Source: Corynebacterium sp.
GTDB taxonomy: Bacteria; Actinomycetota; Actinomycetes; Mycobacteriales; Mycobacteriaceae
Direction of reading: 5' to 3'
DNA: 40,537 bases
Assembly: GCF_030538285.1 (NCBI RefSeq)
Contig: NZ_JAUNUG010000026.1
Span: forward strand, 1-40,537
This document shows, one piece after another, positions 1,275-40,311 of the stretch. The notes beneath the pieces are model-generated. The model saw nothing but the letters and a program-made list of their open reading frames with translations, ran no database searches and was not told the origin of the DNA. The number at the start of each line of letters is the position of its first letter. Position 1 is the first letter of the stretch. Position numbers and translations under genes: made by a program.

Positions 1275-2193
1275 CGTAGGGGCCGACGCCGGCGAGGGTC
1301 GCTGAGCCGGGGCCCAGCCAGTCGCCGTAGCCGACCAGGTGCAGCGGCAGGCCCCGGTCGAGCACCCCGCGGAAGGGGCGCAGCGCGGGCCGGAAGCCGG
1401 TGCACCAGATGAGGTGCTCGGCGGTGAGCTCGTCGAGGCTGCGGAACTGCGGGGTCGTGGGCAGACGACCGGCATCGCGGGCCGCCTTCACGGCGGGCAG
1501 GACGACGATGTCGCCGAGGTCCGAGTCCGCCCCGGGGTCGTCCTCACCGCGCAGGATCGCGAGGGCGCGCAGGCGGTTGCGCCGGAAGAGCACGCGCCCG
1601 TCGACGTCGTCGGGCATCCACCGCGGCTCCGCGCGCGTGTACCAGGTGACGTCGGCAACCTCACTGAGTTCCGCGGCGATCTGCGCCGCGGAGTTCGCCG
1701 CGCCCACCACCGCGACCTGCTTGTCGACGAACCGTTCCGGCCCCGGGTAGTTCGCCGAGTGCCACTGCTCACCGTCGAACGTGCCCGGGTAGGCGGGCAC
1801 GAAGGGCGCGGACCACGTGCCGGTGGCCGCCACCATCTGGCGGGCCCGCCACTGCCGTTCCCTGGCGTGGAGGGTGAAGGCGGCGCCGTCGTGGGTGACC
1901 TTCTCCACCGTGACGGGCCGTTCGACCTGCAGGTCGTAGCGTATCTCGTAGGCGGCGAGGTAGTCGATGACGTGGCTGGCCGGTGGGAAGCCGTCGTAGG
2001 CGGGCATCGGCATGCCGGGGAGGTTGGAGAACTCCGCGGTGCTGAACAGGGTCATCGACGGCCACGCGTGGTGCCAGGCGGCACCGGGGGTGGGGTGGGC
2101 GTCGATAAGCAGCGGGGTGATGCCCTGCCGACGGAGGTAGTACGCCGTGGCGAGGCCCGCCTGCCCGGCGCCGACGATGATAACTTCGTGCAC
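1237..2193 (-). CDS. FAD-dependent NAD(P)H monooxygenase of the arsenic cassette (ArsO-like)
   Basis: A 318-residue flavoprotein. It has an N-terminal FAD-binding [13 protein letters not shown]ossmann motif at about residues 9–21, a central ATGTWS motif typical of flavin monooxygenases, a second Rossmann motif [15 protein letters not shown] for NAD(P)H, and a late CTGFRP segment. The start is GTG 2193, one base after the arsR stop, so it is the second gene of an arsR–arsO operon. The frame continues upstream through arsR, but that extension has no protein-like character. ArsO-type genes occur in ars operons of actinobacteria; the substrate is not established from sequence. A generic pyridine-nucleotide-disulphide oxidoreductase role is the alternative. 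Confidence 0.82.
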
Positions 2194-2194
2194 G

Positions 2195-2509
2195 TCAGTC
2201 CAACTGGAGGACGCCGCGCAGTTCCGCGAAGGCCTCGGGAACGACGGTGTGGGTGGCGGTTTTACCCTGCTGCTCGCGGTTGATGAGTCCGCACTCGGTG
2301 AGCTTCTTAAGGTGGTGCGAGATGGTCGGCTGACTGAGGCCGATGCGCTCGGCGAGTTCATTGACAGTGACGGGGTCGCAGCCGCAGCCGGCGATCTCGG
2401 AGAGGATCCGCAGGCGGGCCGGTTCGGCGACGCAGGAGAACAGCTTCGCGTAGTGGGCGGCCTCGTCGTCGGAGAGAGGGCCGGAGTTGAGCGCGCAGCA
2501 GTCATCCAT
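2195..2509 (-). CDS. arsR: ArsR-family arsenite-responsive repressor
   Basis: A 104-residue winged-helix repressor; the recognition helix is in the LSQPTISHHLKKL segment, about residues 58–70. It carries Cys4-Cys5 and Cys44 (in GCGCDP). The 39-residue spacing between Cys5 and Cys44 equals that of Cys16 and Cys55, the As(III)-binding cysteines described for C. glutamicum ArsR, so the same site type is likely. It is divergent from acr3 across 51 bases containing an inverted repeat, and co-transcribed with the downstream monooxygenase. Release from DNA on binding As(III) is family knowledge. Confidence 0.95.
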   Translation of the reverse strand: MDDCCALNSGPLSDDEAAHYAKLFSCVAEPARLRILSEIAGCGCDPVTVNELAERIGLSQPTISHHLKKLTECGLINREQQGKTATHTVVPEAFAELRGVLQLD

Positions 2510-2518
2510 GCCTCCAGC

Positions 2519-2547
2519 ATAGTACGATCACATTGACAACCATCAAT
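2519..2547. promoter_or_regulatory. Divergent ars promoters with ArsR operator
   Basis: The inverted repeat ATTGA-N6-TCAAT occupies 2532–2547. For acr3 a -10 of TACGAT lies at 2523–2528, putting the operator over its start point. For arsR (minus strand) TTGATG (2541–2546) and TACTAT (2519–2524) are 16 bases apart, so the same repeat covers the -35 and spacer. One bound ArsR dimer could therefore shut both directions. The repeat is seen; the promoter elements are inferred from spacing. Confidence 0.7.
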
Positions 2548-2560
2548 ACGAGAGGTTCCC

Positions 2561-38192: not shown

Positions 38193-38459
38193 TTATCGCG
38201 CCGGCGGGGTGTCGGGGCTGGACTGGTTCGGATCCGCCAGGTCCCCCGGGTCAGCCTGTTCTTCGGCGGTGGGACGGTTGGAGCCGATGCGCTCGTCCAC
38301 GGCGTCGCGCGCCTTCTGAATGTGCTCCGCCTTGTCCTCGCCGAAACGGTCGGTGGCACGCTGCTGCGCGTCGTCGAGGAGCTCGTCGGTCCTCTTCTCA
38401 CCCTCCTCGGACTGCAGGTAGTCATTGGCCTTGTTCTTTGCGTTCTCGAAGATGCTCAT
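38193..38459 (-). CDS. MT0933/Rv0909-like putative antitoxin family protein
   Basis: An 88-residue, highly charged helical protein. The first 60 residues (SIFENAKNKANDYLQSEEGE, ATDRFGEDKAEHIQKARDAV) follow the MT0933-type antitoxin family, and the tail is a proline/aspartate-rich disordered segment. In M. tuberculosis the relative Rv0909 pairs with a SRPBCC-fold toxin Rv0910; no such gene is adjacent here, and many family members appear solitary, so a stress role is as likely as toxin control. I start at ATG 38459; the frame is open far upstream without protein character. Confidence 0.72.
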   Translation of the reverse strand: MSIFENAKNKANDYLQSEEGEKRTDELLDDAQQRATDRFGEDKAEHIQKARDAVDERIGSNRPTAEEQADPGDLADPNQSSPDTPPAR

Positions 38460-38636
38460 GGCCCCGACGGTAGCCACGGGCGTGCGGCGACCGCCACCTT
38501 CTAGCGGGGTTGTTACGGGATGTTTATAGCTGCCGCTCAACGCAATTCGAGGCTGCACCGAGTTGACGAGTGGAGACTCTCCTCTGGAACCTGATGATTT
38601 CGGGATCGGACAACCATTGTTCGGGTAGGAGCCAGA

Positions 38637-39034
38637 ATGGGAATCATCCTCGATGCGGGGCCGGTTTTGAATTTTTCTGGCCGTGAGCCAACAAAACATT
38701 CTCATCAAACTCGCGGAAGCCCAAGGTTTGCAGCTTGCGGTTCCCGAGATCGTCAGTTTCGAGATCAGCCGCAAATCCACCCGGGATGCGCTGTTTGCAC
38801 GGACCCCCGCAGCCGCAACGTGGCAGAAGCTCACGACGACCCAATGAGTGGAGGTGCTATCGGGCGATCGCTCGTATCAGCGGGAAACCCGCCCGTGAAC
38901 GATTGCGGGAACCCGAGAGCTTGGGGGAGATCCTGGTGATCGCGCATGCTTCGATATTGGCACTGCAAGGAACTGACGTGTTCCTGCTTATCGACGACAC
39001 CGATGGCCGACAGCGTGCCCTTGCGGAAATTTGA
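38637..39034 (+). pseudogene. Disrupted PIN-domain toxin gene (VapC-like)
   Basis: Three frames must be joined to read a PIN protein. MGIILDAGPVLNF starts at 38637 with AGGAG six bases upstream. Removing one T from the run of five near 38670 continues as LAVSQQNILIKLAEAQGL, VPEIVSFEISRKSTRDALF and on to an in-frame TGA at 38845. After further shifts the end reads RERLREPESLGEILVIAHA, DVFLLIDDTDGRQRALAEI and stops at 39032. The catalytic acidic residues (Asp6, the mid Glu, the late Asp-Asp) can still be seen. A TAG of a preceding short frame overlaps the ribosome site, as in toxin–antitoxin operons, but no antitoxin is recognisable in 38460–38636. Confidence 0.75.
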
Positions 39035-39076
39035 TGCTGGACTCGTGCCCCTCGACGTATACCTCGAGAGCGGTCA

Positions 39077-39313
39077 CTAACGCTCAAACAGAACCGAGTC
39101 GAGTTCCCCGTGCCGGGAGCATTCCGCCCGCCAGCCCATGGGATGGACCTGAACCTTCATGCGTCGGCCGCAAATCTGGCAGTAACGCGGGGGCTCCAGG
39201 CCAGCGGCCGCGCCGACGGATAGCGGGCGTTCCTCCACGCCCAGCTCGGCGCCGGTGTTCGGGTGGAAGAGCGGCGCCTCCCCGGCAGCACAGGCGGCGG
39301 CAAGCTCGCCCAT
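39077..39313 (-). CDS. bsaP: Biotin synthase auxiliary protein
   Basis: A 78-residue protein whose C-terminal half has the family pattern PPRYCQICGRRMKVQV, then PMGWRAECSRHGELDS; three cysteines and a histidine make a likely metal or Fe-S site. BsaP has been reported as needed for full BioB activity in mycobacteria and corynebacteria, probably by supporting regeneration of the sacrificial Fe-S cluster. Its ATG overlaps the bioB stop by one base (TGATG), giving equal dosage of enzyme and helper. No other gene lies between it and the PIN remnant. Confidence 0.9.
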   Translation of the reverse strand: MGELAAACAAGEAPLFHPNTGAELGVEERPLSVGAAAGLEPPRYCQICGRRMKVQVHPMGWRAECSRHGELDSVLFER

Positions 39314-40311
39314 CAGATGACCTGGCCGACGGCCTTGATCGGGATGCGCAGGCCGTCGAGCATGTCGACGTCCTTTTCCATGGGTCGACCCAGGGTGGTG
39401 AGGTAATTACCGACGATCAACGCGTTCGCGCCTCCCTTCAGCCCCTGCTCGACGCCGAGGTCACCGAGGGTGAGCTCGCGGCCTCCGCCGAAGCGCAGGG
39501 TGGCCTTCGGCATGGCCAGCCGGAGCATGGCGGTGGCTTTGAGGGCTTCGGCGGCGTCGATAAGCGGGCGATTGGCGAAGGGGGTGCCGGGACGGGGATC
39601 GAGGAAGTTGATGGGCACCTCCTCCGGGGCGAAGGCGGCGAGCTGGACAGCGAACTCGGCGCGCTGCGCCAGTGATTCACCCATGCCGAGGATGCCGCCG
39701 GAGCAGACCTCGATGCCGGCATCGCGGATCATCTCGAGGGTGCGGTGGCGCTCATCCCAGGTGTGGGTGGTGGCCACGCGCGGGAAGAAGGAGCGCGCGG
39801 ACTCCAGATTGTGGTTGTAGCGCTTGACACCGGCCGCCTTGAGGCGTTCGACCTGCTCCTGGGTGAGAATGCCCACGGAGACCGAGACGTGGATGTCCAC
39901 CTCGGCGTAAACGGCAGCGACGGCCTCCTCGAGCTGGACCATGAGGCGCTCGTCCGGACCCTTGACCGCGGCGACGATGCAGAACTCGGTGGCGCCGGAC
40001 TTCTGCGTCTGCTTCGCGGCCTCCACCAGCTCGGCGATGTCGAGCTGCACGGCGCGGACCGGGGATTCGAACAGGCCCGACTGGGAGCAGAAGTGGCAGT
40101 CCTCGGGGCAGCCGCCGGTCTTGAGGGAGATGATGCCCTCGATCTCCACCTCCTCGCCGCACCAGCGCAGGCGCACCTGGTGGGCCAGGTCGAGCAGCTC
40201 GGGGAGGTGGGTGTCGTCGAGTTCGAGGATCTCGAGCAGCTCGGGCTCGGTGAGGCCCTGGCCTTGTTCGAGGGCGGTCTCGCGGGCGCGGGTGAGGATG
40301 TCGGGGGTCAT
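39313..40311 (-). CDS. bioB: Biotin synthase
   Basis: A 332-residue radical-SAM enzyme that inserts sulphur into dethiobiotin. The radical-SAM cluster motif is [14 protein letters not shown] near residues 66–79. Further landmarks are [39 protein letters not shown] and [18 protein letters not shown] is six bases before the ATG. Two BioQ-like operators lie upstream, so biotin sufficiency likely represses it. One GCTTATCGACG copy is read as Leu-Ile-Asp near residue 250. Confidence 0.97.

Follow-up and report, generated by a model that had tools for sequence, protein, structure and literature searches.

The window analyzed here, a 40,537-nucleotide stretch of DNA from Corynebacterium sp. (NZ_JAUNUG010000026.1, positions 1 to 40,537), is contig 47 of genome G000 (2,953,577 bases in 94 contigs) and contains, both within and between its genes, many copies of a short word, GCTTATCGACG, that had been singled out in an earlier note on this DNA. 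A direct count gave 14 exact copies (eight on the plus and six on the minus strand, spanning 2100..39565), in full agreement with the earlier note, and a Markov model built from the 3- and 4-base words of the window predicts 0.03 copies over both strands; the abundance of the word is hence far above chance, as had been claimed. Another 13 copies deviate from GCTTATCGACG at one position, so that exact and near copies together amount to 27, compared to a mean of 0.69 in shuffled sequence. Base 5 is the sole difference in nine of these 13 near-copies, which provided the first hint that bases 5 and 6 represent a loose spacer. The exact copies are found on the plus strand at 5433..5443, 7639..7649, 9255..9265, 16397..16407, 23465..23475, 27074..27084, 37597..37607, and 38986..38996, and on the minus strand at 2100..2110, 4806..4816, 14868..14878, 16736..16746, 25787..25797, and 39555..39565. 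We further recorded GCTTCTCGACG, whose core is GCTTNNCGACG, on the plus strand at 339..349, 7293..7303, and 16044..16054 and on the minus strand at 9988..9998, 12496..12506, and 36349..36359; GCTTGTCGACG at 1719..1729 and 12844..12854 (plus) and at 24667..24677 (minus); GCTTCCCGACG at 16577..16587 (minus); and GCTTTCCGACG at 38107..38117 (plus). By our own GC3 rule, with which open reading frames (ORFs) were called here and in the frame analysis below, the sites at 9255..9265, 38107..38117, and 38986..38996 do not lie in called ORFs. A C-rich tail accompanies the copy at 2100..2110 and is weak at 1719..1729, 16577..16587, and 38986..38996.

Extended to the whole of G000, as the earlier note had proposed, the count rises to 782 exact copies of GCTTATCGACG (393 plus and 389 minus), with one copy of the reversed control. 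While the 11-base word is thus repeated genome-wide, it is not the unit itself but merely the commonest spacer variant, in G000 and some of its relatives, of a bipartite element, GCTT-NN-CGACG (GCTTNNCGACG), with some 30 nt of DNA rich in C and poor in G on its 3' side. According to a k-mer analysis of stretches from twelve genomes, bases 5 and 6 constitute the spacer and base 10 is C or T depending on the species; we refer to these versions as the C form and the T form (CGATG). G000 contains 1964 copies of GCTTNNCGACG versus 64 reversed controls, and 400 kb sampled from the complete genome G009 contain 215 copies of GCTTNNCGACG, 12 of GCTTNNCGATG, and 11 of the reversed control. The commonest spacer is AT in G009, G172, and the window, TT in G198, and GA and TG in G237; AT is almost unused in G056 and in G070, where just two of 1893 GCTTNNCGACG sites carry it (GCTTATCGACG). 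The earlier note was therefore correct in what it described, but the observation is larger and includes a C-rich tail, strand alternation, dialects, and a depletion from accessory DNA, all of which lay beyond its view.

The tail was quantified at 707 C-form sites, where the GC skew 3' of the core is -0.316 over bases 11-41 and -0.033 beyond, compared to 0.003 for permuted words. C exceeds G in the tail of every sense, antisense, and intergenic class of sites, the smallest margin being that of the smallest class (8 sites), and the tail is consequently a feature of the DNA and not of codon use. Its skew is weaker in G022 (-0.11), G056 (-0.15), and the T-form genome G004 (-0.18).

Codon or peptide preference for Leu-x-Asp and similar combinations would be one explanation for such a word, and 215 of 363 coding sites indeed fall into the Leu-x-Asp frame. 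These sites belong to a set of 410 from G009, G172, G022, and the window, of which 363 lie inside called ORFs and 47 not wholly inside. All six frames are used (sense 215, 16, and 15; antisense 72, 37, and 8), and each exceeds the number expected from a synonymous-codon shuffle (sense 10.3, 1.9, and 0.3; antisense 19.0, 0.5, and 1.8; 33.7 in total). The density of sites is the same inside and outside of called ORFs (61.8 and 64.6 per 100 kb, respectively). The word is also conserved: in an alignment of G009 with G172, the single genome pair compared (148,792 bases), G172 preserves 99 of 110 sites, whereas it preserves 38.9% of 2634 sites belonging to 1287 permuted words, which were matched for composition and not for codon frame. 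Identity between the two genomes is 87.3% overall, 97.5% at the motif bases, 88.2% at the controls, 93.2% in the spacer, and 86.7% in the flanks. The word is thus held in place by selection, and its six-frame excess and its conservation between G009 and G172 refute codon or peptide preference, whose likelihood we consider negligible. The earlier statements that copies lie in genes in several frames as well as between genes and that this is no codon or peptide effect accordingly hold well past the window in which they were made, and neither outcome that the earlier note had named as refuting it (counts no higher than a codon-aware expectation, or copies limited to the Leu-Ile-Asp frame) occurred. 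A dispersed repeat of the REP or MITE type was likewise rejected, since the flanks contain only the compositional tail and 363 of the 410 sites lie in called ORFs.

In G009 segments of at least 1.5 kb that lack a G172 counterpart, we found one site in 25,309 bp, compared to 115 in the remaining 157,086 bp; for this one genome pair, site densities are thus 4.0 and 73.2 per 100 kb, respectively. The largest gap in G009 contains an IS3-type transposase, the second-largest appears by eye to be another insertion-sequence region, and the largest in G172 contains nucleotide-sugar dehydrogenases. Contrary to a simple mobile-DNA picture, the two largest gaps of G022 hold apparently ordinary metabolic genes. 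Six Corynebacterium plasmids, taken from ten listed rows, two of them for their first 50 kb only, and from hosts that may not use the word, contain five C-form sites (2.1 per 100 kb), two T-form sites, and five control matches in 235,715 bp. Absence of the word could serve as a detector of genomic islands. A 20-kb segment of G009 (780001-800000; L010) that encodes a P-type ATPase and an IS240-type transposase is devoid of sites. The window itself has a site-free stretch of 9.3 kb (27085-36348), within which lower-GC3 ORFs at about 28.7-31.8 kb encode a KdgT-type permease, a LysR regulator, and two adjacent class II dehydroquinases; this stretch is perhaps acquired DNA.

A methylation- or restriction-linked iterated word, or a mutational bias, would also yield a highly iterated, genus-specific sequence, as exemplified by HIP1 of cyanobacteria, a palindrome that has been linked to methyltransferases (PMC4390886). 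The Corynebacterium word is not a palindrome, however, and its two-base spacer, directional tail, and strand alternation, together with its almost complete absence in accessory segments of one and the same genome, make an origin of this kind very improbable.

In a survey of 242 Corynebacterium genomes, a form was scored as present from 250 copies upward, the C form only if its count was also threefold or more that of the reversed control. The C form is used by 168 of them and the T form by 13, one (G024) has both, nine are weak, and 51 have neither; since some members of the last group (G124, G103, and G140) reach up to about 2.3 times the control, their boundary to the weak class is soft. Genomes of the C class carry 280 to 1964 copies of their own form (median 1092.5) and a median of 54 copies of the T form, and the 13 T genomes carry 26-97 copies of the C form; these low numbers indicate that the two forms are mutually exclusive, G024 excepted. 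G024 harbors 1337 copies of the T form next to 352 of the C form (C control 74) and possibly represents a dialect in transition. Outside the genus, the 140 genomes of 30 other genera among 151 family genomes remain near the control, the top ratio being 2.7 (G338, 449 versus 168). In a tree of 20 genomes based on four proteins, with low support (0.1-0.55) at some points of the backbone, a single clade (support 1.000) comprises the three T genomes alongside two word-less genomes, four word-less genomes form a deep clade (support 1.000), and the C genomes occupy two separate parts of the tree ({G005, G056} and {G130, G002, G009}), with G000 near the T clade. The simplest reading of this patchy pattern, although not a proven one, is repeated loss from a common origin. 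One site in topA is common to G000, G002, and G005, which the tree places apart from one another. In the tad region, where 20 loci hold 52 own-dialect sites, none of the C and T sites share a codon. The C genome G009 nevertheless has a T-form copy at codon 54 of TadZ, where G000 and G002 hold the C form, and another at codon 650 of a helicase, where the T genomes G001 and G004 hold theirs. A T-form copy at the same codon of the helicase gene as in G001 is also present in the word-less genome G128 (L134), possibly as a relic.

Copies are evenly divided between the strands, with 91,625 on the plus and 91,717 on the minus strand in the 168 C genomes combined. In 20 stretches spread round the G009 chromosome, we counted 47 plus and 49 minus copies (26/30 and 21/19 in the two halves), and the largest one-sidedness in any stretch was at most four copies; no polarity of chromosome arms is therefore seen in these stretches, wherever the origin lies. 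This is in line with the previous view that near-even strands speak against a replication-oriented signal, and replication polarity of the KOPS type was rejected since all 20 stretches are near balance. Neighboring copies tend to alternate between the strands. In six contiguous stretches of C genomes (1.02 Mb, 648 sites), 404 adjacent pairs are on opposite strands versus 238 on the same strand, with the same lean in all six; the numbers of 6-mer controls of matching frequency that reach the opposite-strand fraction are 1/420, 10/433, 1/748, 1/691, 0/209, and 8/414. Same-strand triples are absent from the 45 sites of G198, where the null is 10.1. In a pooled set of 781 sites from C genomes, which overlaps with three of the above six stretches, pairs on the same strand are underrepresented at distances of up to 1.5 kb (ratios 0.17, 0.53, 0.68, 0.64, and 0.68, then about 1), and opposite-strand pairs are near random (0.85, 0.73, and 0.91, then about 1). 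When the minus series is slid along the plus series, the number of opposite pairs drops from 404 to 379.8 +/- 9.7, and the alternation hence reflects mostly a separate regularity on each strand plus some coordination between the strands. Same-strand copies that avoid each other, and a redundancy that is strand-wise, are properties of a directional signal and suggest that the orientation of the word matters.

Even spacing would also be expected of a binding site for a protein that organizes, replicates, or segregates the chromosome (KOPS-, DnaA- or nucleoid-type), and TTATCGAC, which is part of the AT-spacer form, resembles a DnaA box. The strands show no polarity along the chromosome sample, however, the repulsion is mainly among same-strand copies, the spacer bases are free, with AT nearly unused in G070 and G056, and both forms are missing from 51 of 242 genomes of one genus. 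We regard such a binding site as improbable.

To assess the machinery on which the word might depend, we analyzed 52 genomes (20 C, 12 T, and 20 word-less) for genes of competence and recombination. A ComEC domain (PF03772) without an internal stop is encoded in all 52, in G129 in part, and a crude scan detected comEA beside comEC in 19 of 30 loci from all three classes and missed it in 11. Matches to tadZ, tadA, tadC, and flp were obtained in all 20 Flp/Tad loci studied, including 11 of genomes that lack GCTTNNCGAYG. A single query set left tadB unmatched in the diverged word-less genomes G007, G241, and G066 and tadF unmatched in G011, and no tadE separate from flp was found in G007. Partial TadA matches were obtained in eight of 20 word-less genomes, and the three of these that we fetched possess diverged but present Tad loci. 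A PDDEXK_1 nuclease domain occurs in all 52 genomes, with or without the word, and among the matches listed it is often found in neighboring ORFs of about 1000 amino acids or more, which are putatively AdnAB. Presence or absence of ComEC, ComEA, the Tad locus, or the PDDEXK nuclease was thus rejected as an explanation for the patchy distribution: none of them goes along with the word, and since word-less genomes have the same machinery, no tested gene presence explains which species carry it.

These data also bear on the possibility that the word is a Chi-like recombination signal, i.e., an oriented sequence at which a helicase-nuclease such as AdnAB, when arriving from one side, changes over from degrading DNA to promoting recombination. 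An asymmetric site that is regularly spaced on each strand fits a signal needed in each direction every few kilobases, conservation and rarity in accessory DNA fit as well, and a candidate nuclease domain is present throughout. The orientation bias of Chi sites is linked to replication, and no such bias is seen for the word in the G009 sample, although the two have over-representation and orientation in common. RecC (PF04257) was absent from all 52 genomes, which renders a RecBCD-Chi system unlikely, the nuclease domain is equally present in word-less genomes, and dialects together with absence within one genus are further differences from Chi. Nine fixed bases plus a 30-nt tail are long by the standard of Chi sites. 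The word exceeds its reversed control about 30-fold, whereas 1008 Chi sites were observed and 151 expected in Escherichia coli (PMC1939737). Altogether, a Chi-like role, the main rival of the reading favored below, appears unlikely, but strand-wise spacing and the importance of orientation keep it alive.

The reading that we favor, with modest confidence, is that of a directional DNA signal, specific to groups of species, that functions in the manner of a DNA uptake sequence (DUS) together with the Flp/Tad pilus and ComEA/ComEC; we accordingly speak of a putative uptake sequence and not of a proven DUS. It rests on an asymmetric short word in about 1000 copies on both strands, with clade dialects, core enrichment, accessory depletion, and conservation, all of which match the uptake sequences of Neisseriaceae (PMC3630211, PMC3868556, PMC7371117), and the earlier grouping of the word with uptake sequences and Chi-type signals is upheld. 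A putative surface receptor, most likely a minor Flp/Tad pilin or ComEA, would bind GCTT-NN-CGA-(C/T)-G plus the C-rich 3' tail on double-stranded DNA outside of the cell, the pilus would carry the bound DNA across the mycomembrane to ComEA/ComEC, and recombination would then replace alleles. The orientation of a site may decide which strand or which side of a fragment enters. If word-bearing fragments enter and recombine more often, the word would be spread and repaired by uptake bias, and this would explain both its upkeep at shared sites and its near-absence in mobile DNA; a change of the receptor would explain its shift into dialects. Transformation in the actinobacterium Micrococcus luteus depends on Flp/Tad and ComEC, and the authors note that actinobacteria often possess tad clusters together with homologs of ComEA/ComEC (PMC4322843). 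More tentatively, and with somewhat less confidence than in the function itself, the word may represent a third independent origin of sequence-specific self-DNA recognition for transformation, in mycomembrane Gram-positives with Flp/Tad pili, with at least two dialects in a single genus and an orientation-dependent uptake that manifests itself as an evenly spaced series on each strand.

Several observations weigh against a role in uptake. The comEC and tad machinery is also present in 20 and 11 word-less genomes, respectively, our analysis found no receptor for the word, and the literature matches listed include no report of natural transformation in Corynebacterium. Alternation in the T-form stretch has the same direction but is weak (38 opposite versus 26 same adjacent pairs), and G036 shows little same-strand depletion, with 79 of 414 controls equally low. 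The tail is not additionally conserved (base identity between G009 and G172 0.869, versus 0.880 in the upstream flank), so that it is kept, if at all, as composition, and the plasmid hosts may or may not be users of the word. The literature consulted describes no strand-wise spacing for known uptake sequences, and a directional signal fits Chi at least as well as uptake. Uptake by Haemophilus is reported by Bakkali to be independent of site orientation (PMC1939737); directionality would set the Corynebacterium word apart from it.

The DUS of Neisseriaceae, whose receptor is ComP, differ from the word in sequence, and the free 2-bp spacer, the C-rich tail, and the strand-wise regular spacing are distinctions of the latter, as is a host that is an actinobacterium with Flp/Tad genes, in which uptake and receptor are putative. 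The uptake signal sequences (USS) of Pasteurellaceae, with ComN/PpdA as the predicted receptor, likewise combine a genome-wide short core with a long asymmetric flank; this flank is AT-rich whereas the tail of the word is C-rich, and the USS hosts are Gram-negative. The USS have two dialects (PMC12616744), as the word has its C and T forms, and even USS spacing, reported by Karlin (cited in PMC1939737), resembles that of the word. Inverted USS pairs form terminators in Haemophilus (PMC5217627), but opposite pairs of the word within 100 bp are not enriched (21 seen versus 24.8 expected). The same paper looked for spaced motifs and names three Corynebacterium genomes, for which the portion available to us reports only CRISPR pairs; the literature matches listed include no earlier description of the word in Corynebacterium, in keeping with the novelty that had been suspected from the window.

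If the favored reading is correct, the word would mark DNA as 'self' for uptake, which to date has been known from two Gram-negative families only, and such marking would extend to a phylum whose envelope and pilus differ. Natural transformation would then be expected in most of the genus Corynebacterium, whose members include industrial and clinical species, and hundreds of species with graded dialects would provide a setting to study the co-evolution of receptor and word. Were the word Chi-like instead, it would represent a Chi system that has dialects and was lost repeatedly inside one genus; strand-wise spacing offers a quantitative handle under either reading.

In word-less genomes, a search of 40-100 kb each revealed no other strong word in G132, G043, G029, and G007, and only GC-rich, palindrome-like words in G206 and G011. 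The word-less G012 (L030, L113-L115, L130) has a different abundant word, approximately T-R-A-TGACG-Y-CGCG, with 50 sites in 116 kb and in five frames, in which both the C-rich tail and strand alternation are absent; it possibly belongs to an unrelated second signal system. In the window, which is 65% GC, the palindrome AATATATT was counted six times over both strands (i.e., at three places), with 0.12 expected. G005 (L033:857-3811) contains a local repeat cluster of seven copies of CACTCCCGGAA within 3 kb, on both strands and with none elsewhere in the 56 kb seen.

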